Part shown: positions 18,933 to 47,120 of the stretch, piece by piece | Position numbering within the stretch: position 1 is the first letter of the stretch | How the letters are laid out: each line of letters starts with the position of its first letter | Source of the DNA: Akkermansia muciniphila | GTDB taxonomy: Bacteria; Verrucomicrobiota; Verrucomicrobiia; Verrucomicrobiales; Akkermansiaceae | DNA length: 64,000 nt | Direction of reading: 5' to 3' | NCBI RefSeq assembly: GCF_018709685.1 | Contig: NZ_JABDHQ010000002.1 | Span: 124,001 to 188,000, forward strand | Made by a program: the position numbers and the translations under genes | Notes under the pieces: model-generated | What the model was told of the DNA's origin: nothing | The model's database searches: none | Seen by the model: the letters and a program-made list of their open reading frames with translations, nothing else

Positions 18933-21900
18933 TCAGTTATACATGGAGAGCTCCGTTTCCAACTCCCGGCAGCGGTTGACGCGGAACTGTTCGTCCAGTT
19001 CCAGTATCTGGCTATGGCCCAGGCTGTCCTTAATGGTGAGGTTGACCTTGGAGCGGCCCGGGTATCTTCTCAGGATGTCCCGTATCTGTTCCAGATTCTT
19101 TCTCGTGTGGCGCAGGGGGCTGACAATGATATTCAGCGGGCCCTGGTCTCCGGCCCTGGATTTGCGCCGTTTACCGCCCAGCGGCTCCACGCTCTGCGCG
19201 GCCACGCTCTTGGCGGAGGTGCGGTCATCCTCCCGGATATTGGCGCGCACGGCAACAAAGACGCCCGGTTCCAGCCCTCCTTCCATTTCCAAAGCCTTTT
19301 CATAAACGTCCGACCACAGCAGCACTTCAATGCTGCCGGTGAAGTCTTCCAGCGTCATAACGGCAAATTTTCTTCCGGCCTTGCTGATCTTGGGGATGAC
19401 GGAGCGCACCATCCCGGCGATCTGGTGCTTCTGCTTGAGTTCATGTGATTCCAGCGTGTCAATAAGGCCTATGCGGGTGTATTTTTCCGCATCAATGACG
19501 CCGCGCATGGAGTCAAGGGGGTGGCCGCAGAAGTAGGCGCCCAGCAGGTCCTTTTCATCCCCCATGCGCTGGTCCTTGGGCCATTCCGGAACGGCGGGTT
19601 CATCCTTCACCCTGGGGGCTTCAAAAGTCATGTCAAACAGGGCGCCCTGCCCCAAAGCCTTATCCTTGTGCACCTGTGAAGCGCCGCTCAGGGCCAGGTC
19701 CACGCGTTCAAACAGGGCGCAGCGCGGTTCCAGCGTCCAGTCCAGAGCTCCAGCACGGATCAGGGATTCCAGTATCTTCTTGTTGACGGATTTGGAATCC
19801 AACCTGTTGCAGATGTCCTCCATGCTGGAGAATTCCCCGTTCCGCTTCCGCTCTTCCAAAAGAATCTGCATGGCGCCTTCCCCCACGTTCTTGATGGCCG
19901 CCAGGCCGTAACGCACGGCCAACTTGCCGGAAGGCGTTTTTTCAGGCGTGAATTTAAGCATGGACTTGTTCACGTTGGGCGGGAGGATTTCAATGCCCAT
20001 GCGGTTGGCCTCTTGAATGAACACGCCGATTTTGTCGTTGTTCGCTTCATTGGACATCAGGCCGCAGAGGAATTCCACGGGGAAGTGGGCCTTGAGGTAG
20101 GCCGTCCAGTAGGAGATATGGCCGTAGCAGGCAGAGTGGGATTTGTTGAAGCCGTAGCCGGCGAATTTCTCAATCTTGTCAAAGATGGCCGTAGCCGTCT
20201 TCTCGTCAATCTGGTTGGTTTTCCAGCACCCTTCCACAAAGTGGGCCTTTTCCTTGGCCATTTTTGCGGGGTCCTTCTTACCCATGGCGCGGCGCAGCAG
20301 GTCGGCGCCGCCGAGCGTATAGCCCGCCAGCAGCTTGGCCGCCGCCTGCACCTGTTCCTGGTAGATCATCACGCCGTAGGTCTCTCCGCTGACCTGTTCC
20401 AGCAAGGGATGTTCATATACCACCTGGCGCAGCCCCTTCTTGACTTCAATCATTTCATCCATGAACTGCATGGCCCCCGGACGATACAGGGCCAGCAGGT
20501 CAATGATGTCTTCAATCTTCTGGATACCGTAGCGCCGGCAGGTGTCCACCATGCCGCCGGATTCCAGCTGGAACACGCCCATCGTATCCCCCCTGTTCAG
20601 CAGGTCCAGCGTTTCCTTGTCATCCAGGGGAACGGAGTCCAGCTTGAATTCCGGCACGCGCCAGCGGGCGTATTCTTCCGCATCATGCATGACGGTCAGG
20701 GTTTTCAGGCCCAGGAAGTCCATCTTCAAAAGGCCCACTTCATAAATGGCGCTCATGTCGCACTGGGCGACAACGGCGGCATGCGGGTCGGAAAGGTCGT
20801 CACGGGTGAGTGCCACATGCTCGTCCAGGGGACGGTCACCGATCACGACGCCCGCGGCGTGCACGCCCACGTTGCGGATGAGCCCTTCCAGGCGCGTTGC
20901 ATATCCCCAGAGTTCCGCGTACGTTTCATCAGACGCGATCAGCTCCCGCAGTTCTTCGTTGCTCTTGTAGCTGGACTGGAGGGTTACCTTGGGGCCGGTT
21001 TCAATCAGCTTGGAGATGCGGTCGCCGTCCGCATAGGACATGTCCATCACGCGGGCCACGTCCCTGAGCACGGATTTGGCGCCCATGGTGCCGTACGTGA
21101 TGATGTGGGATACGGCGCGTTCCCCGTACTTCTGCCGCACGTAGTCAATCACCTCCGGACGGCGGGTCTGGCAAAAGTCAATGTCGATATCGGGCGGGCT
21201 GACGCGCTCCGGGTTCAGGAAACGTTCAAAGATCAAGCCGAACCGCAAGGGATCGATGTTCGTGATCTTCATGGAATACGCCACCAGGGAGCCCGCGGCG
21301 GAACCGCGGCCGGGCCCCACGGGAATGTCATGATCCTTCGCCCAGTTGATGAAGTCCGCCGTAATCAGGAAGTAGGAGGGGAATTTCAACTGGTTGATGA
21401 TTCCCAGCTCATAATCCAGGCGGTCGCGGAGCTCCTTGTCCGTAGCCACGCGTTCCTTGCCGTACCGTTCCTCCAGGCCTTCATAGCACACCTTGCGCAG
21501 GTATTCCTCACGCGTGGAGCCGTCCGGAGTGCCGAATTCCGGATACTTTTCCGTACTGGCGGAGTCCAGCTTGATGGTGACGTTGCACCGTTCCGCGATT
21601 TTCAGCGTGTTTTCCACGGCATCCGGGTAGTCCCGGAATACTTCCCGCATTTCCTCAGGAGATTTCAGGTAGACTTCCGTGGAGTAGCGCATGCGCTTGG
21701 GAGAAGCCAGTTTCTCGTTGGTCCCCACGCAAATCAGCACATCGTGCATGTCGTGGTCTTCCTTCCGGAGAAAGTGCACGTCATTGGTGGCCACAATGGG
21801 AGTATTGGTCTTGCGGGCGATGCTCACCAGCCCGGGCAGGCATTTTCTTTCTTCCTCCAGCCCATGGTCCTGAAGCTCCACAAAGATGTTGTCCTCCCCG

Positions 21901-35863: not shown

Positions 35864-36704
35864 TGGTTGAAGAGGGGTTCACGGCATCCGCGCCGGAAGA
35901 AGGCAGCGGCATGATCTCCCGTTCTTCAACAGACGGCACGGTCGCGGCATCCTTCCCCACGGATGCCTCCGACTCTACAAGCTCCTTCTTCCCGGAGGAA
36001 GAGGAATTTGCGCCAGCCCGGGCAGGGGACGGCCTGTGCACCGTCCTGAAAATGCCGGACGGCTTTTTCTGAAGTTCATGAATGCTCCAGCTCCCGTCCC
36101 GGACAATCACGCGGGTTCCCACGGGAGCCACTTCAAACAGGTTCCTTGCAATCAGGTGGGGGATGCGGATGCAGCCATGGGAGGACGGGCGCCCGGGCAG
36201 ATAACCTTCATGAATGCCCACAGCCCCGTTCACCCTCATGAAATAGGGCATCTTGGCTGCTTCAAACCGTTCTCCGGGACGCGCGGCGTCCTTCCGTATA
36301 TCCCCGTCCCGCTGCTCTCCGGCGGCATTGATGAAAGCGCCGTAATAGGAATGGTGGTCCGCGTCCTTGGAGGAAATCCGGAAGTAGCCCGCAGGCGTCA
36401 TGCCCGGGCTCCTGCCGGAACTGATGGGGCCGTACCCAATGCGGTGCGTTCCACGGTACACGTACATCATCTGCTTTTTCTTATCCACCACAACCAGCAG
36501 CTTTCCGGGCAGTGAAGGGTCATCCTCCCACTTGAGCAGATGCCCCGGAATGGTTCCCGTTTCCTCAAAATACCCGGTCAGTTCCTCCACCGGAACGCTG
36601 GACGAGGAGGACAGGGAGGCATCCCCGCCCGTCGTGCCGCAGGAAGAAAACAGAACGGGCACGCACAGGCAGGGAACCAGCAAATGGAAAAGGGATAACT
36701 TCAT
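35841..36704 (-). CDS. L,D-transpeptidase (YkuD) lipoprotein
   Basis: 287 residues from the ATG at 36704 (36719 and 36734 are in-frame alternatives). The hydrophobic start ends at a lipobox, VLFSSC, so it is probably a lipoprotein. The YkuD domain begins at GKLLVVVDKKKQMMYVYRG. The catalytic motif HEGYLPGRPSSHGCIRIP holds the active His and Cys that form 3-3 cross-links or attach proteins to peptidoglycan. The C-terminal 75 residues are low complexity (Ser/Pro/Glu-rich). It overlaps the acetyltransferase gene by 23 bases, implying coupled translation. Confidence 0.92.
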   Translation of the reverse strand: MKLSLFHLLVPCLCVPVLFSSCGTTGGDASLSSSSSVPVEELTGYFEETGTIPGHLLKWEDDPSLPGKLLVVVDKKKQMMYVYRGTHRIGYGPISSGRSPGMTPAGYFRISSKDADHHSYYGAFINAAGEQRDGDIRKDAARPGERFEAAKMPYFMRVNGAVGIHEGYLPGRPSSHGCIRIPHLIARNLFEVAPVGTRVIVRDGSWSIHELQKKPSGIFRTVHRPSPARAGANSSSSGKKELVESEASVGKDAATVPSVEEREIMPLPSSGADAVNPSSTNGLEGLE

Positions 36705-36761
36705 TTCGGGGAGTCGCATCACTGCGTTAGACAACGGAGGGCCGGAAAAAAGAACCGCTTT

Positions 36762-36777
36762 TTGACAAAACTGTCAA
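36762..36777. promoter_or_regulatory. Perfect TTGACA-AAAC-TGTCAA palindrome upstream of the L,D-transpeptidase gene
   Basis: Two 6-bp arms around a 4-base centre in the 111-base gap between the terminase stop (36816) and the transpeptidase start (36704). Read on the minus strand it also supplies a consensus TTGACA -35, but no good -10 follows at 16-18 bases. It could be an operator overlapping the promoter. Confidence 0.4.
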
Positions 36778-36815
36778 CCATCAATCAAAAAAATTCCTTT
36801 TCCCGCTCCGCGTCC

Positions 36816-38447
36816 CTACCACATCCGGGCTCGTCTGCCGCGCCCGCCGTCATTCCCTGGGCCGTGGAGCAGACCGTGGGACCACGCTTCCGCAAAGGTC
36901 CGCGCGGCATCCGCCGTATGGGAATGTCCGTCATGTACGGGGCTTTCCGCCACGGCGCCTCCCGCGCCGGGCGGCCTGGACCGGTACAGCTCCAGATGCT
37001 CCACCCCGCCCGGTTCCTCTCCCCCGCGCCCGTTGCGCATCCTTTCCTGGGTGCGGGCATGGAAGAAACTGCGCTCCAGCAGTTCCCGCAGCGTATTGAT
37101 GCCGCGCCAGACGTCCGTTGTCCTGGGAACGACGCGCACATTAGCCAATCCAAGCCGCGCCATGCTCTCCACGTAGGAAACGCCGTGGGCATCCCTCCGC
37201 GCGGCATCATGCGGCAGCAGGTGGGCCGTCACCGTCACGCCGTGCCGCTTCTCCCATTCCCTCATTTTTTCCACGTAATGGGCCAGGGGCTCCTGGCTGG
37301 CGGCATAATGGTCCAGCCAGTGGAAACTGTCCCCCAGCACCTGCACCAGCCAAATGGCCGTATGGTCGCTCAGGCCCAGGTCCCACGCCGTGAAGGACGG
37401 GGCTTCCGGCTCCGCCTGAAACTCCATCCCCACGCGCCCCTGTTCCCGGAGGGCCATGATGCGGCTGCCGTAAATGCTGCCTTCCTCCCCGGTGGCAAAC
37501 GCCTCCTGCGGCGTTCCGGGGTACTCCTGCTTCATGGAGGCTCCCATCACGCGGGCCATCCGGGCGTACCATCTTTTCTGCCCCGCGTCCAGCACCACCC
37601 CGGTGTCCCGCTCCAGGGAAAGGAAATACTCGTCCAGCTCCCGGCTCCATCTGCCGCGCCCGGGCAAGGTGTATTCCTCCTGGTCAAACCAGCTGAAAAA
37701 GAAAAACCGGAAGTCCAGCGGAGACAACTCGCCCTTGCCCATGTTCTCCATGGCTTGGCGCGTCAGCTCGTAATTCACGCCGTACCGCCCCCCTTCATGG
37801 GTGCTCTCCTTCAGGATAAAACCGCCGGGGGGCACCGTATTGATCGCCCCCGTACGTATTTCCCTGGCACGCCACGGGGCATGCACGGAAACGTGCGCCA
37901 GCTCGGAGACGTGCAGGAACTGCATGGTGCCGCCGCGCAGGTTCGTTCCCACGCGCACATCGCTTCCGTTGGCAAAAGCCAGACGGGTGCGCGCAGACGT
38001 ACAGGGACGCCATACCCCCTTTTTCTCCACGCCGGAGAGGCTTTTGATTCTCTCTCCCAGCCGGGCCAGGGCCACATCCATCGCGGAAGGATTGGGCGGA
38101 ACGTAATCCAGATGGTCCCAGGCGAAGTGCAGCTTGGCAAGCTTCTGCTGGGCGTCCGGCAGGCTTTTGTCAATGATGCCGCAGTGGAAATTGGACCGGA
38201 ACAGGCTCATATCCAGCATCAGCATGGCCACATACGTGGAAATGCCAAGCTGGCGGGCCTTCAGGATGTCGTTCCTGTACCACAGCCGCTCATGAAGCCG
38301 CCGCTGCGCCCTGTTCAGGGAAAAACGCTGGAGCTGCCCCGCCTTGTTCTCAATCCAGTACAGGTGTTCCAGCCGCCAGAGCTGGCTGGACAGCACGGAC
38401 CGCCACGGCAGGCTCCAGGACTCCGTCAGATGATCAGAAGTTTCCAT
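36816..38447 (-). CDS. Phage-type terminase large subunit, all catalytic motifs intact
   Basis: 543 residues. TerL is the DNA-packaging motor: an N-terminal ATPase and C-terminal RNase H-like nuclease. Visible in order: adenine-binding Q motif LNRAQ (about 45), variant Walker A KARQLGIST (about 63-71), Walker B in FLHVSELAHV (about 180), coupling motif ESTHEGG (about 213), nuclease acidic residues in TAWDLGLSDHT (about 355), LPHDA (about 411-415) and HTADAAR (about 509-515). No frameshift or stop. Its start overlaps the end of the 1728-codon gene by 14 bases. It is the last gene of a three-gene unit with no small terminase, portal or capsid nearby. Gly/Arg-rich stretches lie near the C-terminus (about 470-540). 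Confidence 0.88.
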   Translation of the reverse strand: METSDHLTESWSLPWRSVLSSQLWRLEHLYWIENKAGQLQRFSLNRAQRRLHERLWYRNDILKARQLGISTYVAMLMLDMSLFRSNFHCGIIDKSLPDAQQKLAKLHFAWDHLDYVPPNPSAMDVALARLGERIKSLSGVEKKGVWRPCTSARTRLAFANGSDVRVGTNLRGGTMQFLHVSELAHVSVHAPWRAREIRTGAINTVPPGGFILKESTHEGGRYGVNYELTRQAMENMGKGELSPLDFRFFFFSWFDQEEYTLPGRGRWSRELDEYFLSLERDTGVVLDAGQKRWYARMARVMGASMKQEYPGTPQEAFATGEEGSIYGSRIMALREQGRVGMEFQAEPEAPSFTAWDLGLSDHTAIWLVQVLGDSFHWLDHYAASQEPLAHYVEKMREWEKRHGVTVTAHLLPHDAARRDAHGVSYVESMARLGLANVRVVPRTTDVWRGINTLRELLERSFFHARTQERMRNGRGGEEPGGVEHLELYRSRPPGAGGAVAESPVHDGHSHTADAARTFAEAWSHGLLHGPGNDGGRGRRARMW

Positions 38448-41400
38448 GTTCGTCCACCAGTTCCTTCAGCAGGGCGCCCTCGCCCGTCATTCCCCTCAGG
38501 GCCTCCGTCCCCTTGTCCAGGGGCAGGCGGTACGCCAGGGGATCGTTCAGCACGTGGGAGACAAAGCGCAGAGCCTGCACCATGACGGGGTCAAGCAGGT
38601 CCAGCCTGCCGCGCAAATAACTTTCCCGCACGCCCAGCTCCTCATACAGCCGGATGACGTCCTCCATGAAGCATCCCACGGCCTGTTCCCTGTTCCACCA
38701 GAAGCGTTCCTGCGCATCCGCATCCCCCAGCGTTTCCAGAATCCGGCCCAGGGACCGCGCCCGGCTCTCCCTCGCGGTCTCCGGAGTGGGCTCCTCTCCG
38801 GCCCCCGTAAAGCACTCCAGTGGAATATAGGAATCCCGTCCGGCACCCGCGGGCAGACCGTGCCTGTCCAGATAGGCACCGTTCCACGCATGCACCACGT
38901 ACGGAGCGCGCGCCTGCCGCACGGGGCTCTCCGGAATGCCCGGCATCAGGCGCACGGTATGCCCCGGGTCGTCCGGGTCACGGTAAATCACGCAATTGGC
39001 ATACATCGCGCGCGCCTCCTCCGGATCAGGCAGGAAGGGGAGCATGCCGCCCCTCACTTCATCCTGCCGATGGTCCAGGACATCAATCAGGGTGGCGGCT
39101 TCATCCAGGGGGACCTCCCGGCTCCACCACGCGGGCACCCCCTCGGGAACCGCGGCGGAATCAATGCGGTAAGTTTTGCCCCGCCAGACGATGCCGGACT
39201 CCGCTGCTTCCGGGCGGTCCGCAAAGTTGCGCCTCACCTCGTCCAGCGTCTCCACCGCACGGACCACGTCCGGACGGCTGCGCCACGCGGCAGGGGCAGC
39301 CACGCCGCGCCTGACGGAAAACTCCTCCTCCACATAGGAGGGAGCATCCAGAACGGGCTCCGGGAGGGGGTCGCCCATCGCGGACAGGGAAACGCCTTTA
39401 GCCCGCAGGGTTCCGTGCCCGGCCCGGAACGGGCGCTTCACCAAATGCAGGTACAGGCCGGGATGCTCCGGATCCGCACGCCATGAATTCAACTGGGGAA
39501 ACTCCCGGAGCGCCCGGGCCAGTTCCGCCATGCGGTGTTCCGCCAGCCGCTCCATCCGGCGCGTTGAGCCGCCGCCGTATCCATCCAGTGCAGCCAGGGC
39601 GCGCACCAGGTCTTCCTTCACGTGGTCCGGGGCCGTAGATAAAAGCCTCCCGGTCATCAGGCTGTGGGCATACCTTTCCATCATGGGGAGGCGCACCTCC
39701 GCGCCGCCGGCATTCCAGGCGCGTTCCGCCCGTATCCGGTCGTTCATCCCCACGGTTTCATGAAGCATGCCCATGAACTCGGCAGTCTCCGGCCCCTCCT
39801 TCAGCGTTTTCTTCAATTCCGCGGCACGGAGCACCAACCCCTCAAGGGGTTCAGGAGCCCTGTCCGGACTTGCGGCCCCGTAACGCGCCCATGAAGCTAC
39901 CGTTTCCGGAACGGCGTCATGATCCAGATGTGCAAAGAAGTACTCTTTGGAAAGCTGGGACAGTTCTTCAATCAGTTCCGTCTCTCCCGGCAGCTTCCGG
40001 CGCCGCGGCACACGGCCCAGGCGCTTCAGCATCTCCCACGCGCCCTCCGGAGAGAGCTGGTCCGTGCGCATCAGCCGGTCCCAGACAACCTCCGCCTTGT
40101 CCTCAATCAGGGCCAGGGGGTTGTCCGTGTTATGGAGGCGCAGCCGGTGCATCACCAGCCCCTTGGCCGTGGGAACGGGCATATTGTCCGCATCCACCCC
40201 CAGCCGCTGCGCCTCGCCCACATACTTGCCGTGAATGTCCATGCGTTCCTTCAGGGCATCCGGGCTCATCAGCGTTTCAGCGGCTACGCGTCCCCTGCCC
40301 GTCACCTCCAGGCGGTCACCGGAGCCCACGGCCCCGCGCACGCCGTAACCGGCTTTCAGCATATCCGCCACCGCCATGGACGACAGGCTGTCGTACAGGC
40401 AGGAGAGACGTTCCCCATGCGCGTTTTCCAGCCCTGAAGTCAGCCGCAGGTAGTTGGTATCCCATTCCGGATGCCCGCTGCGGGCATGCCACTCCCAGCT
40501 CCGGATCAAATCCTTCTTGGCCGTGCAGGCCGGGGAAAACATCATGGAGACATGGGCCATCAGGTCCGCCCCGGCAGCCTCCCGCGAAGGGTGCCAGTCC
40601 GACCACCTGCCGTTGGGGTATTTCACCCTCCACAGCCTTTCTCCTTCCCTGTTTCCGCGCGATGACTGGAACAGGCGCGGCGTCAGGCGCGACAGGTTCT
40701 CCACCGCCTTCTCCGTACCCGGATAGACGCGCGGCGCGGCCTGCGCCGGCCCGGCATCCAGACGTGAAGCATCCAGAACGGAGGCATACCGGGCCACATG
40801 CTCCGGCTCCACTTCCAGAAAGCGGGACAGCAGCCGGCCATAGCTCTCCACCGGCGTATAGCCGCGCCCCACATGAACGTCAAACTCCTTCATGTTGGGA
40901 AGCACCTGGAACAAACTGTTCACGTCCGCCTGGGTTCCCCACACAAAACGGTTCATTTCCCGCAGTTCCGGACTCACCCCGTGGCGCTCCCGGTCCCCCA
41001 GGGAAGCCATCATGGAACTCATCCGGGACAGGGCGGACGGAAGCCCGTCCGGTCCGGAAGCCTGTTCCAGCAGCTCCGGAGCGCGCAGCAGGGCGCTGCC
41101 TTCCTCCAGCCAGCGGCGCGCCCTGGAGCAAGCCTCCCCGTTACGGCAGAACGACTCCCACAAACGAAGGGCCACATGGGCGGACACCTCCTCATGGGAA
41201 GCGCCGTGCACCCGCTCCATCACCCCCTCATAAACATTCGCGCGCGTCCGGCGGTCCATCTCCACCGTAAGAGCATCCCAATCCGTGCCGGAAAAGCCCG
41301 CGCCGCGGCCGGCTTCCTCCGGATAAGCCAGCAGCAGCATCCTATACGGACGGTAGGCGCGCCTTTTGAGCCTGTCTTCCACAAACGCCCGGCGCAAGCC

Positions 41401-43620
41401 GTCCGCATGCACGTCATAATCCGCCGCATTCCTCAAACGCCACGGAATTTCCCGGCCGTTCCTGTTCCGGGCCAGCCCCAGGTCTTCCTCCTCCATACGG
41501 CACAGGGCCTCATACCAGGAGGAAAGGGCCTCCTCCACGGAATGGCGGCCCTGCGTCCTCTTCATTTCCACGCCGGGCGCGGGGTCCGCCTCATAAACGC
41601 GCCGTCCGTCCGCCCCGGCGGATTCTCCCACGCGCGGCAATCCGGCCCGCAGCAGCCATTTGGTCCTGGCCTCCGCATGGTCCGGGTGCGGAAAAAGCTT
41701 CTTCAACACCGCTTCCGCCTCCGGAAAATCCCTCATCTTCCAGGGCTTCGTCCGGACGGGGGAAGGCATTTCCAGAAAATCCCGCACGTCCTGCTCCGTC
41801 CTTAAAAAGGGTTCTCCGGCCTCATCCAGCACACGGGACCATTCCATGGCCTTCCGGGAAATGTACAGGGACCCCCACAGGGGGGAATCACGCAGGGACT
41901 TTTGGAGCAGCTCCCCGGCGCGGCGTACGTCCTTCTCCCGCAGGATGCGGGCCGCCGCTTCATCCGGAATGCCGAACGCCTTCAGCGGCGCGCCATCACC
42001 CAGCAGCGTTCCGGCATGGCGGAAATGGTGGAGGGAAGCCTTCCCGGCTCCAATCAGCAGGAAGGGCATCATCATGGCGGCCTCCCTCAACTGGTCGTCC
42101 AAGGATACCTGCCTTTCCCTCCAGCCTTCCCAATCCACGCCGGACTCCTTGCCCGTAGCCGCTCCCACGCCTTCCTGAACCACCATGGGCGTCAGCTCCA
42201 TCAGCTTGTTCTCCGCCGCCATCTTCACGGCATCAGCCGCCATGGAGCCCGTTCCGGAAAGAACCGCCCCCATGCCGCCGGAGGCGGATCTCACGGCCCG
42301 GAAGGCGCGCATTCCCTGCCCCAGCATACGCTGGCCCAGCTTCGTCATCCCGAAGGAAAGCAGGGTATTTATCCCCCCGGACGCCACGGCCCCGCCCATC
42401 TGCGCGTCAAACACGCCTTCCGGATTCATGCGGCGCGCATCCGCCATATGACGCCCCGTTTCCCCGGCCATCAGAACGCCCAGCCCCGCCGGGCCGCCAA
42501 ACGCCAGCGCCGTGGACGCGCCCTGCTGGGCCATGTCCACCAGCAGTTCCCGGAACCAGGGGGCATCCTTTCCTCCGCGCAGGGGGGCGAACTCCATCCT
42601 GGCAAAATTCCGCAGCTCCTCAAAGCTTCTGGAATACCTGTCCAGCGTCTCCTTCTCACTTCCTTCCGGGAGGGTCCAGGCCGCACCGTTCACGGCCAGC
42701 TGGACCACATTCTCCGCCATCTCCGCCGCGCCGCGCTTCAGCGCCCTTCCCAGGGCATCCCGGAAATCGGGGCGGGAGCGCAGGCTGGAGGCCATCATGC
42801 GGTATACCTTCTGCCGGTCCCCCTCCTCCAGCGACGCCAGGCAATCCACGGCACGCACCACATCCGGAACACCGGCGGCTACCTTCCGGTTCACTTGCAC
42901 GGCGGGGAAATCTCCCGAGGCGGGAGCTTCATTGGCTAGCAGCCCCTCCAGCCCCTTCCGGATCATTCCGGCGGCATCTTCCAGCCGGTTCCTGTCATCC
43001 AGGGCATCGGACACGGCCCGGTTCTTCAATTGTTCCGCTACGGCCTGCAAATCCTCCGGCCAGGCGGAAACGGCCTTCCGGAGCCGTTCATCCGGAGCCT
43101 CCCTGTTTCCGGCCAGCGTCCGGTCATACTCCTCCTGATACAGTTCAAACAACGTTTCCCGCTGGGAAAGGCGCACCTGGTTGTGCATGGAGACGGCCAC
43201 AAACAATTCGTCATCAGACTTGCCGGACGCGCCGTACTGCCGCGCCACCTGCTCCCGTATTCCCTTCCAGTCCCGCCGGATGCGTTCACGGGGAATCTCC
43301 CCTGAATCCGCCACCCAGGACTGCATCACGCATGCGGCCACCCGCTCCCGGTCAGCCGTTCCCGCCGGATACACGGCTTCCGCCTTGCGCCTCACTTCCA
43401 GGGGAATCGTCATCACGTCCCCCGTCAGCACGCTGTTCCAGTATTCTTCACGCGCCGCCGCCTCACGCTCCGGGCTCTCCCGCGTGCCGTAAGCTTCTCC
43501 GGAGGGCCCGGTCACTGCCGGAGCGGAACTTTCCTCCCTGTGCACGGGAGCCCTTTCCGGTGCTCCATCTTCCAGCGGCAGGGTTCCTGCCTTTTCCCGA
43601 TTCATCTCATTTTCCATCAT
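38434..43620 (-). CDS. Giant phage-like protein, probable internal/ejection protein
   Basis: 1728 residues in one uninterrupted frame. I recognise no catalytic family. The composition is helical, rich in Arg, Glu and Ala, with no signal peptide. Residues about 305-490 form a Gly/Ala-rich hydrophobic belt (STALAFGGPAGLGVLMAGETG, GGAVASGGINTLLSFGMTKLG, GGMGAVLSGTGSMAADAV) resembling membrane-inserting segments of phage ejection proteins. Near residue 1000, RLWRVKYPNGRWSDWHPSREA resembles a small module found in very large phage proteins. Its start (ATGATGG) overlaps the upstream TAA by one base, and its end overlaps terL by 14 bases. An internal virion protein is the best guess. Function unproven. 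Confidence 0.6.
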   Translation of the reverse strand: MMENEMNREKAGTLPLEDGAPERAPVHREESSAPAVTGPSGEAYGTRESPEREAAAREEYWNSVLTGDVMTIPLEVRRKAEAVYPAGTADRERVAACVMQSWVADSGEIPRERIRRDWKGIREQVARQYGASGKSDDELFVAVSMHNQVRLSQRETLFELYQEEYDRTLAGNREAPDERLRKAVSAWPEDLQAVAEQLKNRAVSDALDDRNRLEDAAGMIRKGLEGLLANEAPASGDFPAVQVNRKVAAGVPDVVRAVDCLASLEEGDRQKVYRMMASSLRSRPDFRDALGRALKRGAAEMAENVVQLAVNGAAWTLPEGSEKETLDRYSRSFEELRNFARMEFAPLRGGKDAPWFRELLVDMAQQGASTALAFGGPAGLGVLMAGETGRHMADARRMNPEGVFDAQMGGAVASGGINTLLSFGMTKLGQRMLGQGMRAFRAVRSASGGMGAVLSGTGSMAADAVKMAAENKLMELTPMVVQEGVGAATGKESGVDWEGWRERQVSLDDQLREAAMMMPFLLIGAGKASLHHFRHAGTLLGDGAPLKAFGIPDEAAARILREKDVRRAGELLQKSLRDSPLWGSLYISRKAMEWSRVLDEAGEPFLRTEQDVRDFLEMPSPVRTKPWKMRDFPEAEAVLKKLFPHPDHAEARTKWLLRAGLPRVGESAGADGRRVYEADPAPGVEMKRTQGRHSVEEALSSWYEALCRMEEEDLGLARNRNGREIPWRLRNAADYDVHADGLRRAFVEDRLKRRAYRPYRMLLLAYPEEAGRGAGFSGTDWDALTVEMDRRTRANVYEGVMERVHGASHEEVSAHVALRLWESFCRNGEACSRARRWLEEGSALLRAPELLEQASGPDGLPSALSRMSSMMASLGDRERHGVSPELREMNRFVWGTQADVNSLFQVLPNMKEFDVHVGRGYTPVESYGRLLSRFLEVEPEHVARYASVLDASRLDAGPAQAAPRVYPGTEKAVENLSRLTPRLFQSSRGNREGERLWRVKYPNGRWSDWHPSREAAGADLMAHVSMMFSPACTAKKDLIRSWEWHARSGHPEWDTNYLRLTSGLENAHGERLSCLYDSLSSMAVADMLKAGYGVRGAVGSGDRLEVTGRGRVAAETLMSPDALKERMDIHGKYVGEAQRLGVDADNMPVPTAKGLVMHRLRLHNTDNPLALIEDKAEVVWDRLMRTDQLSPEGAWEMLKRLGRVPRRRKLPGETELIEELSQLSKEYFFAHLDHDAVPETVASWARYGAASPDRAPEPLEGLVLRAAELKKTLKEGPETAEFMGMLHETVGMNDRIRAERAWNAGGAEVRLPMMERYAHSLMTGRLLSTAPDHVKEDLVRALAALDGYGGGSTRRMERLAEHRMAELARALREFPQLNSWRADPEHPGLYLHLVKRPFRAGHGTLRAKGVSLSAMGDPLPEPVLDAPSYVEEEFSVRRGVAAPAAWRSRPDVVRAVETLDEVRRNFADRPEAAESGIVWRGKTYRIDSAAVPEGVPAWWSREVPLDEAATLIDVLDHRQDEVRGGMLPFLPDPEEARAMYANCVIYRDPDDPGHTVRLMPGIPESPVRQARAPYVVHAWNGAYLDRHGLPAGAGRDSYIPLECFTGAGEEPTPETARESRARSLGRILETLGDADAQERFWWNREQAVGCFMEDVIRLYEELGVRESYLRGRLDLLDPVMVQALRFVSHVLNDPLAYRLPLDKGTEALRGMTGEGALLKELVDEHGNF

Positions 43621-44918
43621 TACTTGCCTTCCTTTCCCTTGTTCATATCCCTGAATCCCACCCAGCCCTCATCCTGAAGCCGGTTTTCCTTTTCAAAAAC
43701 TTTCTCAAGCTCCGCCTCAGGCTGCTGCGGGGCTCTTCTGACCGCCTCCATCAATTCCATCTGGACGCGTTTCCATTCCTCCACGGCGCGCGCGTCCTCC
43801 GATGGCCCCCAGGCTCCGCTGCGGAACAGGGAGGACAAGCGGCGGGAAGCCGCGCGGCGCGTCTCCTGCGGAACCTGCATCATCACCTCCCGCCTCCGGA
43901 GGAGCCTTTCCACCTGCGGAGCAGGCAGCCCGGAAGTAGCCACTTCAATCATGGCGTCCGCATCCCCCTCCCCACCGCAATCCTCATCAACCAGGCAGGT
44001 CATGCGGCACAACAGTCTATCGTCCTCCGGTACGCTGACGCCGGAAAACTCCGCCTCCCGCCTCCGGTCCCGGGACTCCGTATAACGCCTCAATTGCCCG
44101 GAACTGATCAAGCCGTACTTTTCCGCATTCGCCAGCCCTTCATCCCGGAGCAGGCCTCCCCCGGACACCGTGCGCGCCACGGATTCCGCATAACGCCGCT
44201 TCAGCTCTCCATACGCCGTAACGGCCTCCTGCGCCACTTTCCTTTCCTCCGGGGTCTGCGGCGGTTTCCCGCCACCGGAAACAAGACGAACCGCCCGGAC
44301 CGGATCGCGCCGCACCTCCTGCACCGCCTGGTTCAGGGCCACGCGGCTGCGGGCATCCTCCACCATGCGGGCGGCCTCCTCCCCGGTCACAAAAACGCCG
44401 CGGCCTTCCTCAATCCTGCGTTCAGCCAGTCCGGCCTCTCCCTGCTCCACGGCGTATTCCACCCCTCCGGTCCAGGCCCGCCGCGCTTCCTCCAACTGCC
44501 CCAGGCGGGACATCTTCTGCAAATAAATGCTTCCGGCAGACTCCAGATTCTCCCTCGCCAGCTCCACCCTCTCCCGTACCGGAGCGGACATCCTGCCGGG
44601 CAGATAGGAGGGAAGCCGCTCCGCGAGCGCCTTTTTCCATCTTTCCTGAACGTGCTCCGGCTCCCCCCCGGCCTCCAATTCCCGCATCACGTCCTGTTCA
44701 AAACGGTACAGGCCGTTGCGGGCCTCCGCCCACTGTCCGGCGTCCCTCACCTCCTGCATCTCCTTCACGGCGGTTCCCGCCGTTCCGGCCAGTTCCATCA
44801 CGCCCGCAGCCAGGTTCCGCACTCCGGCGGCCTGCGCTTCAAACGCGTTCAACGGAACCACGCCGGACAAATCCGGCGCCACATGCAGCATCCCAAAATC
44901 CTGTATTCGTATAGCCAT
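43620..44918 (-). CDS. Helical phage-like protein at the head of the terminase unit
   Basis: 432 residues from the ATG at 44918 (MAIRIQDFGMLHVAPDLSG; AGGCCATTAAAG upstream is a possible ribosome site). A longer frame to 44966 adds 16 residues. Almost entirely predicted helix and coiled coil: an Ala-rich stretch near residues 30-60 (AGVRNLAAGVMELAGTAGTA), then long charged helices (RRRREAEF-type, EAELEKVFEKENRLQDEG). No catalytic motif seen. Size and composition fit a smaller internal virion protein paired with the 1728-residue one, but homology is not established. Stop and next start overlap as TAATG. Confidence 0.6.
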   Translation of the reverse strand: MAIRIQDFGMLHVAPDLSGVVPLNAFEAQAAGVRNLAAGVMELAGTAGTAVKEMQEVRDAGQWAEARNGLYRFEQDVMRELEAGGEPEHVQERWKKALAERLPSYLPGRMSAPVRERVELARENLESAGSIYLQKMSRLGQLEEARRAWTGGVEYAVEQGEAGLAERRIEEGRGVFVTGEEAARMVEDARSRVALNQAVQEVRRDPVRAVRLVSGGGKPPQTPEERKVAQEAVTAYGELKRRYAESVARTVSGGGLLRDEGLANAEKYGLISSGQLRRYTESRDRRREAEFSGVSVPEDDRLLCRMTCLVDEDCGGEGDADAMIEVATSGLPAPQVERLLRRREVMMQVPQETRRAASRRLSSLFRSGAWGPSEDARAVEEWKRVQMELMEAVRRAPQQPEAELEKVFEKENRLQDEGWVGFRDMNKGKEGK

Positions 44919-45032
44919 CTTTAATGGCCTCCAAGCTAGGAAGGGGACGGAAGGCCCGGCATCCATTCCAAACCGTTACCGTCCGGCACTTGCCTCTTGC
45001 CAAAACCGGACCGTTCCAACACAATCAGCCCC

Positions 45033-45824
45033 ATGCCCCGCATCCGTTTCACCGCCGCGTACGATGGACGCCCGTACCTGGGCTGGCAGAGCCAGCCGGG
45101 GGGCCGTACCGTACAGGATGTCCTGGAACGCGCCTTTTCCGCCCTCTTCGGCTCTCCAGTCCGCATCCACGGTTCCGGCAGGACGGATGCCGGCGTGCAT
45201 GCCCTGGGCCAGGTTTTTCATGTGGACGCGCCGGATACCCACCGCATTCCGGCGGACAAATGGCCCACCGCCCTCAACACCCGCCTTCCCCATACCATCC
45301 GGGTCATGCACGCGGAATACGCAGCCCCCGGCTTTCATGCCAGGTTCAGCGCCGCCGGAAAAACCTACCGCTACTGCATCTCCCGCGCGCGCATCCTCAG
45401 CCCGTTTGACGCGGGGCTGGCCTGGCACCGTCCGCTAGCCTGGAGCGTGGAAACCCTGGAACAAGCCGTGCTCCTTTTTACGGGAACGCATGACTTCAGG
45501 GCCTTCGCGGCCCTTCGCGGCAATGAACCGCGCCCCATCCCGGAAGACCACTTCCGCCGCACGATCACGCGGGCGCAAGTGGAGCAAAAGGGAGACCACG
45601 TCTTCATCACCTTCACCGGAACGGGCTTCCTCTACAAGATGGTGCGCCTCATGGCAGGCGCCGCCCATGAAGCGGCCAGGGGGAAAATCACGCTGGACGA
45701 GCTGGCGCGCCTCATCAACTCTCCGCGCCCGCAGGATAAAAGCCCGTTCTGCGCTCCGCCGGACGGCCTCACGCTGATGCGGGTCCACTACCCGGCGGAA
45801 CCCCAGGAAAACCGGCCTAAATAA
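45033..45824 (+). CDS. truA: tRNA pseudouridine(38-40) synthase
   Basis: 263 residues from the ATG at 45033 (the frame extends to 44997). It isomerises U38-40 in tRNA anticodon arms. Start RIRFTAAYDGRPYLGWQSQPGGRTVQDVLE and the catalytic Asp in GSGRTDAGVHALGQVFH are typical. FHARFSAAGKTYRY and FTGTGFLYKMVRLMAG complete the fold. It is convergent with nadD, 20 bases apart, and divergent from the terminase unit. Confidence 0.96.
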   Translation: MPRIRFTAAYDGRPYLGWQSQPGGRTVQDVLERAFSALFGSPVRIHGSGRTDAGVHALGQVFHVDAPDTHRIPADKWPTALNTRLPHTIRVMHAEYAAPGFHARFSAAGKTYRYCISRARILSPFDAGLAWHRPLAWSVETLEQAVLLFTGTHDFRAFAALRGNEPRPIPEDHFRRTITRAQVEQKGDHVFITFTGTGFLYKMVRLMAGAAHEAARGKITLDELARLINSPRPQDKSPFCAPPDGLTLMRVHYPAEPQENRPK

Positions 45825-45844
45825 GCCAAAGACGGCCCGCAGCC

Positions 45845-46420
45845 CTATCTCCGTTTCACGCCGTACAGACCCTCCCGCCGGATCAGCGCCTCCACCTCCG
45901 GATTCAAATGAGGCACCGGACATACGCCCGCGCGCAGGTCATGCCGCACGCGGGTGGAGGAGGAGGGTTCATCCCCCTCAATAAAAACGGCGCGCACCCC
46001 CTCCCTGGGGAGAGGCTCGCCGCCGCGGTGGTACACAATAAACGTCACCAGTCCGGCCAGATGCTCCCAGCGGCCCCACTGTTCCAGGGAATCCCACTGG
46101 TCCTTTCCCATAAGCCAGAAAAGCTCCGCTCCGGGATAACGCTCCGCAGCGCACTCAGCCACCCTCCACGACCATGAGGGAGGGGGAAGAGTCAAATCCG
46201 TACGGTCCAGCACAGCCCAGTCCAGCCCCCGGAGCGCCAGCTCAATCATCCGGCAGCGCTGGTCATCCGTTACGGCGGGAGCCTGCTCCTTCAACGGAGA
46301 CAAGGAACACGGCATGAACAGAACGCGGTCCAGCCCGCAATAGTCACGGGCATGGGCGGCCACGCGAACATGCCCCTCATGCACGGGATCAAACGAACCG
46401 CCGAAAATGCACAATTTCAC
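45845..46420 (-). CDS. nadD: Nicotinate-nucleotide adenylyltransferase
   Basis: 191 residues. It adenylates NaMN to NaAD in NAD synthesis. The nucleotidyl transferase motif CIFGGSFDPVHEGHVRVA (GSFDPxHxGH) starts the protein; LFMPCSLSPLKEQAP, LFWLMGKDQWDSLEQW and the SSSTRVR phosphate-binding motif follow. It lies 22 bases downstream of the M23 peptidase gene on the same strand. Confidence 0.95.
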   Translation of the reverse strand: MKLCIFGGSFDPVHEGHVRVAAHARDYCGLDRVLFMPCSLSPLKEQAPAVTDDQRCRMIELALRGLDWAVLDRTDLTLPPPSWSWRVAECAAERYPGAELFWLMGKDQWDSLEQWGRWEHLAGLVTFIVYHRGGEPLPREGVRAVFIEGDEPSSSTRVRHDLRAGVCPVPHLNPEVEALIRREGLYGVKRR

Positions 46421-46442
46421 CGTCCGTCATTCATCAAAAACA

Positions 46443-47120
46443 TCAAAGACCTTCCGTGCCCTTGTAAGGCAGGAACCCGCCGATAGGCACGCGCACCATC
46501 CTCTTTTCCAGAGGCAGGCGGCGGAAACGGGTGATAAAATCCGTCAGTCGCCCGTAATTGCGCTCCGTCTTGGGAATCCCCTGCTGGCCGCAATTCACGT
46601 CCGGATTGTAATGCAATTCAATGTGAAGGTGGGCCGGATACATCCCGCGGTTCGTGCCGATGGTGCCCACCTGCGTGCCGCGCAACACCAGCTGGCCCAG
46701 CACTACGTTAATATCGTTCAAATGGGCGTAAAGCGTCTGGCAGCAGAGCACCTTTCCGGACTTGGGCTCCCGGAAGGCATGGCGGACGATCACCACCTTC
46801 CCCCATGCGCCGCGGGCGTCCGCCGCGTAAGTCACCACACCGTGGCCAACGGAATAAACGGGATCGCCCAGATCGGAATTGCCCCCGCTGTTGCCGTTCC
46901 AGTCCTCGCCCATGTGGCGGGGGCTTTTCACGCGCAGGCCGCGGGACCGGTAATAGCCGTTGCCGTCAGGCTTGCCTACCGGAAAATCAAAACCGTCGCA
47001 AAGGGGGACGAGCGCGAACTTGCTGTCCCGCCGGGCCATGTAGACGGGAGCGCTCTCGCTGATAAACGCGGACCCGGTCAGAAGAACCAGCGCCAGCAGT
47101 AAAAAACGGAAATAGGACAT
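46443..47120 (-). CDS. Exported M23 family metallopeptidase (LytM fold)
   Basis: 225 residues from the ATG at 47120 (the frame continues to a TTG at 47168). Signal peptide FRFLLLALVLLTGSAFISESA. The zinc site is HMGEDWN (His, Asp) with HLHIEL supplying the last His pair; AWGKVVIVRHAF and TLYAHLNDINVVLGQLVLRGTQVGTIG are the typical LytM strand order. It probably cleaves peptidoglycan cross-bridges in the periplasm. Divergent from the fucosidase gene. Confidence 0.9.
   Translation of the reverse strand: MSYFRFLLLALVLLTGSAFISESAPVYMARRDSKFALVPLCDGFDFPVGKPDGNGYYRSRGLRVKSPRHMGEDWNGNSGGNSDLGDPVYSVGHGVVTYAADARGAWGKVVIVRHAFREPKSGKVLCCQTLYAHLNDINVVLGQLVLRGTQVGTIGTNRGMYPAHLHIELHYNPDVNCGQQGIPKTERNYGRLTDFITRFRRLPLEKRMVRVPIGGFLPYKGTEGL

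Follow-up and report, generated by a model that had tools for sequence, protein, structure and literature searches.

A candidate T7-type gene transfer agent whose virion genes are dispersed over the Akkermansia chromosome

Why should a gut commensal keep an intact phage terminase and two large phage-like proteins, encoded side by side amid core genes, when no capsid, portal or tail gene accompanies them? The question is raised by three minus-strand genes at positions 36816-44918 of a 64,000-nucleotide stretch of Akkermansia muciniphila DNA (the window, G000:C12:124001-188000, where G000 is the Akkermansia genome). They code for the large terminase subunit (TerL), for a protein of 1728 amino acids (aa), hereafter the giant, and for P3, a protein of 432 aa. 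An initial annotation had described this trio as an intact three-gene unit, and the following was confirmed: the coordinates, the uninterrupted frames of TerL and of its two partners, the junction overlaps of 14 bases (TerL/giant) and 1 base (giant/P3), the seven TerL motifs quoted, which are all in the translation, and the flanking L,D-transpeptidase (PF03734, one side) and truA (PF01416, other side) genes. Among the options that it offered, a domesticated 'DNA-transfer or delivery device' proved the best. The trio probably serves a domesticated T7-type (podovirus) particle as its locus for packaging and ejection; the genes of this particle lie at five or more sites of the Akkermansia chromosome, and it would act as a gene transfer agent (GTA).

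The genes examined in the trio neighbourhood include none for a portal, capsid or tail, and no integrase was seen adjoining the trio; the annotated absence of other virion genes holds for that neighbourhood. It does not hold for the genome, since four further chromosomal sites in G000, amid ordinary bacterial genes, carry podophage virion genes (Table 1). The likeness to the late region of T7-like phages is upheld, save that the middle genes persist elsewhere: the four other sites retain genes for the portal, scaffold, capsid, adaptor, nozzle and a gp14-like protein, and these, together with TerL, a Bbp19-like protein, P3 and the giant, make up the components present in G000. TerL, giant, P3, portal, capsid, nozzle and gp14-like protein gave one match apiece in this genome, on five contigs. 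Related prophages in G057, G017 and G053 supplied the portal, capsid and nozzle queries for a search of the genus; of the three prophage capsids used, that of G053 already resembles the genus type closely. The fifth site of G000 was found because a gp14-like gene lies near the trio in G015. Distances of 81-1476 kb separate the trio, portal, capsid and nozzle sites from one another in four single-contig genomes (the gp14-like site not being part of this measure). Linkage differs between genomes: the nozzle gene adjoins TerL in G022, the capsid gene is ~7 kb from TerL in G038 and the gp14-like gene is close to TerL in G015.

The giant and P3 were each found in 46 of 59 Akkermansia genomes; TerL, with an identity of at least 59%, was found in 45, one copy (G012) being partial. 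The 46 giant-bearing genomes all have P3; 45 have TerL, 45 the portal, 43 the capsid, 44 the nozzle and 44 the gp14-like gene. None of the remaining 13 has a TerL, giant, P3, portal, capsid or nozzle of the genus type, an assignment made by hand from gaps in identity or bit score, with copies on contigs carrying prophage-type genes dropped; the G013 portal match (C1) was counted as prophage-type though ambiguous, and the G013 nozzle match (C21) was dropped likewise. The gp14-like gene was counted at E < 1e-5, single matches being kept without sorting by prophage origin; the set-less genomes gave weak matches only, in three of them (G013, G025, G048; E above 1e-3), which were not counted. On the rpoB tree, which was built quickly and has 16 rows less than half filled, 11 of the 13 set-less genomes form one clade, and the nearest row outside it, G034, bears the set; one event on this tree amounts to several unlinked loci changing simultaneously. 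The trio frames were adjacent and open in 33 of 33 fetched loci, and all three were present in 44 of 48 loci from named records (Akkermansia, Akkermansiaceae, uncultured Verrucomicrobiales or uncultured bacterium), the other 4 being cut by contig ends. Among the 244 family genomes searched, TerL above 900 bits is confined to this genus, and eight genomes in three other family genera have a lower-scoring TerL (531.5 bits at most). TerL relatives of 448-532 bits were noted in G092, G175 and G187, which belong to one genus, and in G180, from another genus of the same family.

A few genomes had extra copies, of the capsid gene in G049 and G058 and of the nozzle and gp14-like genes in G015. Surplus capsid-like copies at G049:C1:560390-561307 and G004:C1:47617-48067 contain internal stop codons and are possibly decayed duplicates or phage pieces. 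The second nozzle-like and second gp14-like matches of G015 are near each other (C1:20256-23448) and perhaps belong to another prophage or to a second set.

The trees of the dispersed genes follow that of the host. Distances correlated with those of rpoB at r = 0.94-0.96 for TerL, portal, capsid and nozzle, 0.83 for the giant and 0.86 for P3, and 0 of 500 permutations gave a value as high; the gene trees had 13-20 splits in common with rpoB, against 3 at most in shuffles (genomes sampled: TerL 39, giant 38, P3 33, portal 36, capsid 31, nozzle 30, rpoB 46). The ratio of nonsynonymous to synonymous substitution rates (dN/dS) was low throughout. Its median over nine close genomes (36 pairs, those with dS <= 0.05 being excluded here and below) was 0.032 for the capsid, 0.036 for the portal, 0.067 for TerL, 0.117 for the nozzle and 0.158 for the giant, with 0.018 for rpoB; over four of the nine (6 pairs) it was 0.051 for the adaptor, 0.129 for the scaffold, 0.138 for the Bbp19-like protein and 0.180 for P3. 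The search of other genomes and the dN/dS comparison that the initial annotation had proposed thus returned the giant and P3 in 46 of 59 genomes and medians of 0.032-0.180; a trio confined to a single strain and under relaxed selection was not seen, and the view that selection retains the trio is borne out by the low ratios and the genus-wide vertical inheritance. As judged from their sequences, the dispersed virion genes are intact, evolve under purifying selection, are passed down with the host lineage and for the most part occur, or are missing, jointly.

Of the complete phages found, the nearest is a temperate podophage, a prophage of G053 that also occurs as IMG/VR UViG_2850260673_000003. 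Its proteins are 44% (TerL), 38% (portal), 35% (scaffold), 47% (Bbp19-like), 29-39% (nozzle) and 70% (capsid) identical to those of the Akkermansia set; in the IMG/VR copy, in which only scaffold, capsid and nozzle lie in the stretch, the capsid is 68% identical. Unlike the dispersed genes, those of the prophage are contiguous, over ~37 kb, and the nozzle gene is followed in order by a gp14-like gene, a gene for a 567-aa protein and a giant frame. The T7 order is gp14-gp15-gp16, to which this order corresponds. A profile of the giant matched the giant frame of the prophage (E 1.5e-29, profile positions 9-545), and a profile-to-single-sequence alignment paired P3 with the 567-aa protein across 313 columns (probability 86.6, pair E 4.5e-6); the prophage adaptor, P3 and gp14-like proteins were unmatched by plain tblastn with the G000 proteins. 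An 869-aa internal protein of the G017 prophage was rejected as a counterpart of P3 (probability 0.5, no match); the C-terminal part of this 869-aa protein is endolysin-like, and its gene is adjoined by an open frame of 3200 aa (L023:4961-14563, G017:C1).

Other phages are more remote. The TerL proteins of the dispersed set form a single clade apart from ten phage copies (SH-aLRT support 99, in a tree with long branches), while the split in a portal tree with two prophage copies is poorly supported (SH-aLRT 23). The best IMG/VR TerL, among 80 of 242 relatives, is 37% identical; the named phages listed reach 36% at most, and all 422 matching records fall below 60%. The giant had no match in 50,697 phage records, and none of its 72 pattern matches in IMG/VR was confirmed as a relative. 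It had no Pfam or PHROG match either, P3 obtained nothing useful from Pfam and PHROGs, and the TerL profile matched no solved structure by sequence. Predicted structures are suggestive for P3, the model of which (pLDDT confidence 83) resembles podophage core proteins: podophage core or ejectosome chains make up seven of the ten best structural matches (Z 5.8-7.8), those of T7 coming closest, although Z 7.8 at most is under the level proving a shared fold. In a viral structure library its best match was an unnamed phage protein (E 3.7e-8), and Foldseek against the PDB returned nothing at E <= 0.001. The model of the giant N-terminal part is modest (pLDDT 69); its nearest neighbour is a large polyvalent-type phage protein (E 2.8e-8), and no solved structure was significant, the best rows being unrelated (Z 4.7 at most).

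How does such a set compare with what defines a GTA? Six features have been listed, among them particle proteins derived from tailed phages, mostly random packing of host DNA and a fully endogenized genome, often spread over several loci (PMC9662315), the further ones being an own genome that is not wholly packable, mostly vertical inheritance with co-diversification and delivery of DNA to other cells (PMC9662315). The three of these six that sequences can test are found here: TerL, portal, capsid, nozzle, adaptor and scaffold are homologous to tailed-phage proteins; the genes are endogenized at five G000 sites, four of them at the measured distances given above; and the rpoB correlations and common splits point to vertical inheritance with co-diversification of set and host. 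Because the genes are spread over the chromosome, the set is also likely not to be packable whole. The virion module is of T7 type, with a portal of PF12236, a capsid of PF19821, an adaptor of phrog_394 and a nozzle of phrog_376. The dispersed sites, cellular neighbours and host-tracking trees are not those of an active prophage or virus, nor is a co-inherited capsid gene of its own that of a phage satellite. The gene products would assemble a short-tailed capsid, and TerL would pump fragments of host chromosomal DNA into it by way of the portal; the gp14-like protein, P3 and the giant would be ejected first and form a channel, and the DNA would be carried into another Akkermansia cell. We lean towards a T7-type GTA that was domesticated independently, is confined to the genus as searched, has at least five loci kept together by selection alone and swaps chromosomal DNA in the gut.

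The same genes could build a killing particle like PBSX of Bacillus subtilis, which is cited as such a case (PMC12946183); it may pack host DNA, and would be a weapon against related strains that delivers none. The parts that would face the target do evolve fastest (dN/dS of 0.180 for P3, 0.158 for the giant and 0.117 for the nozzle, versus 0.032 for the capsid and 0.036 for the portal), but this rapid change may equally be structural freedom, and a complete internal set of gp14, P3 and giant type, along with an intact terminase, fits DNA delivery; we hold a killing particle to be unlikely. Rather more doubtful is another use by the host, interference with resident prophages or help for them, in which the genes alone would build no particle: related temperate podophages do inhabit the same genus, one of them with a 70% identical capsid, but the whole virion set is retained, including in G000, where TerL, portal, capsid and nozzle were each found once only. 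That the trio is part of a decaying prophage dispersed by rearrangement, a possibility raised by the initial annotation, would agree with the phage derivation of every part and with flanks that vary between lineages; the open frames (33 of 33 fetched and 44 of 48 named-record loci), the dN/dS medians, the genus-wide vertical inheritance, the genome's own capsid gene and the joint presence of the genes make it very improbable. To the satellite borrowing the capsids of a helper phage, also proposed there, we give hardly any credence: the trio viewed by itself lacks a capsid gene, but the genome's own is co-inherited with it, the trees track the host, dN/dS is low and no integrase adjoins the trio.

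Several observations weigh against a GTA. The particle, its packaged DNA and the transfer are inferred, not demonstrated. Few events underlie the pattern of presence and absence, two changes being enough to explain all 46 rows of the rpoB tree, and the Fisher values of co-occurrence therefore overstate the evidence. Neither a lysis gene nor a receptor-binding fibre was identified, no search aimed at such families having been made, and there is no certain small terminase. A scan upstream of six transcription starts revealed no convincing motif common to the loci: short words such as GGTCCGG exceeded plain shuffles, which kept base composition only, and the upstream word of the trio is absent from G004. 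An hmmsearch with the P3 profile matched nothing in 86 phage stretches, including the G053 prophage. Finally, a temperate phage of Akkermansia carries a capsid 70% identical to that of the set, its other proteins being far more distant, and this phage copy branches from the base of the set's capsids, where the order is unresolved; the phage may accordingly be near the ancestor, or the capsid gene may have been swapped with the host set, gene exchange between phages and host set being possible.

Table 1. Position of the trio, of the other virion genes and of the related prophage
Feature	Location	Strand	Basis
TerL, large terminase subunit (ATPase + nuclease), 543 aa	36816..38447	-	phrog_2, catalytic motifs
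Giant internal virion protein, 1728 aa, gp16-like going by place in related prophage	38434..43620	-	profile match
P3, all-helical internal virion protein, 432 aa, gp15-like going by place	43620..44918	-	profile alignment, structural neighbours
114-base stretch, P3 start to truA start	44919..45032	.	sequence
Portal	G000 C34:154502-155992		PF12236, E 2.2e-141
Major capsid	G000 C2:25942-26850		PF19821, E 1.5e-99 (run on copy from same-species G057)
Nozzle, matched as two pieces	G000 C44:75633-77633		phrog_376, E 4.2e-131
gp14-like internal protein	G000 C8:17789-18259; frame L372:1444-1980		search starting from the gp14-like gene of G015
Bbp19-like	G000 portal locus		PF25181, E 1.4e-6
Scaffold	G000 portal locus		phrog_3742 (family without named function); phrog_458 'protease' weaker
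Adaptor, divergent to portal	G000 portal locus		phrog_394 (first 144 aa tested)
G053 prophage stretch	L026, L027 = G053:C1:2443244-2483243; IMG/VR copy = L378

Within the trio, TerL matched phrog_2 of PHROGs at E 2.2e-16 and, weakly and below its cut-off, PF17289 of Pfam. Its KARQLGIST, ESTHEGG and LPHDA motifs are identical in 39 of 39 genomes, in which WDLG, ADAAR and SEL(A), the Walker A motif and the remaining catalytic residues are also retained; the first motif, LNRAQ, is variable except for N and AQ. An alternative P3 start at 44966 (448-codon frame) was set aside, as the family alignment favours 44918 (MAIR...). The stretch between P3 and truA, strongly similar across four close genomes, is likely the promoter region of the trio. 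In the window (36000-47000) G+C was 0.62-0.66 across the trio and truA, and about 0.58-0.60 either side.

At the loci of the set, the genes examined included none for replication, integration or lysogeny. The capsid gene has neighbours with Cu-oxidase_4 and ThuA domains, the nozzle gene has methyltransferase-like genes in its vicinity, and beside the portal locus are tRNA-Val, a thioredoxin-like gene and a CRISPR array accompanied by a Cas3-like gene. That array (L079:1007-3035, G000:C34) has 30 exact repeats and 29 spacers, of which none matched the sequences gathered in this analysis. The scaffold is so named because it sits ahead of the capsid in the G053 prophage. Downstream of the adaptor come a winged-helix gene and then an 85-aa gene, the two overlapping by a few bases; both were seen in 10 of 10 portal loci examined (~20279-20826 of joined L078/L079, G000:C34). 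The former is a possible regulator and the latter a possible small terminase, which we take it to resemble, PHROGs and Pfam having given no match.

If the GTA reading is true, a much-studied human gut commensal produces particles of its own for DNA exchange, and GTAs evolved one further time, in a phylum from which the literature searched holds no GTA report. A virion set at five sites, held by selection and jointly missing from one clade, is strong evidence of host use. A lone 'orphan' terminase can be the part that shows of a dispersed system, which tools that depend on clusters of phage genes would presumably overlook. The reading is directly testable in cultured A. muciniphila. Three induced prophages are on record for strain YL44 of this species (PMC10197239); the literature on GTAs, Akkermansia prophages and Verrucomicrobiota, judged mostly by titles and the openings of abstracts, describes no such set.

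Among known systems, T7 and T7-type podophages are autonomous viruses, unlike the chromosomal set; the capsid and portal of one of them, the Pelagibacter phage HTVC010P, are 33% and 27% identical to those of the set. RcGTA has a main structural cluster and a siphovirus-like tail, from which the Akkermansia set differs by its T7 type and by capsid, portal and nozzle genes that are mutually unlinked. RcGTA and the alphaproteobacterial GTAs are, like the set, endogenized, multi-locus and inherited with the host, and show no self-replication genes (PMC9662315); none is apparent at the Akkermansia loci examined. A close parallel, drawn by description and not by sequence, is FpGTA of Faecalibacterium, the main text on which has no mention of Akkermansia or Verrucomicrobi- (PMC12946183). 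As described there, its host is also a gut commensal, its virion genes are podovirus-like and near-ubiquitous in the genus, and they are likewise split, into two operons ~125 kb apart (PMC12946183). It differs in belonging to a Gram-positive phylum and in having most genes in one 10.5-kb operon, the second operon containing lysis and fibre genes (PMC12946183). FpGTA particles and their packaged DNA have been demonstrated (PMC12946183), whereas the Akkermansia set, at five sites or more and in another phylum, is known from its genes alone.

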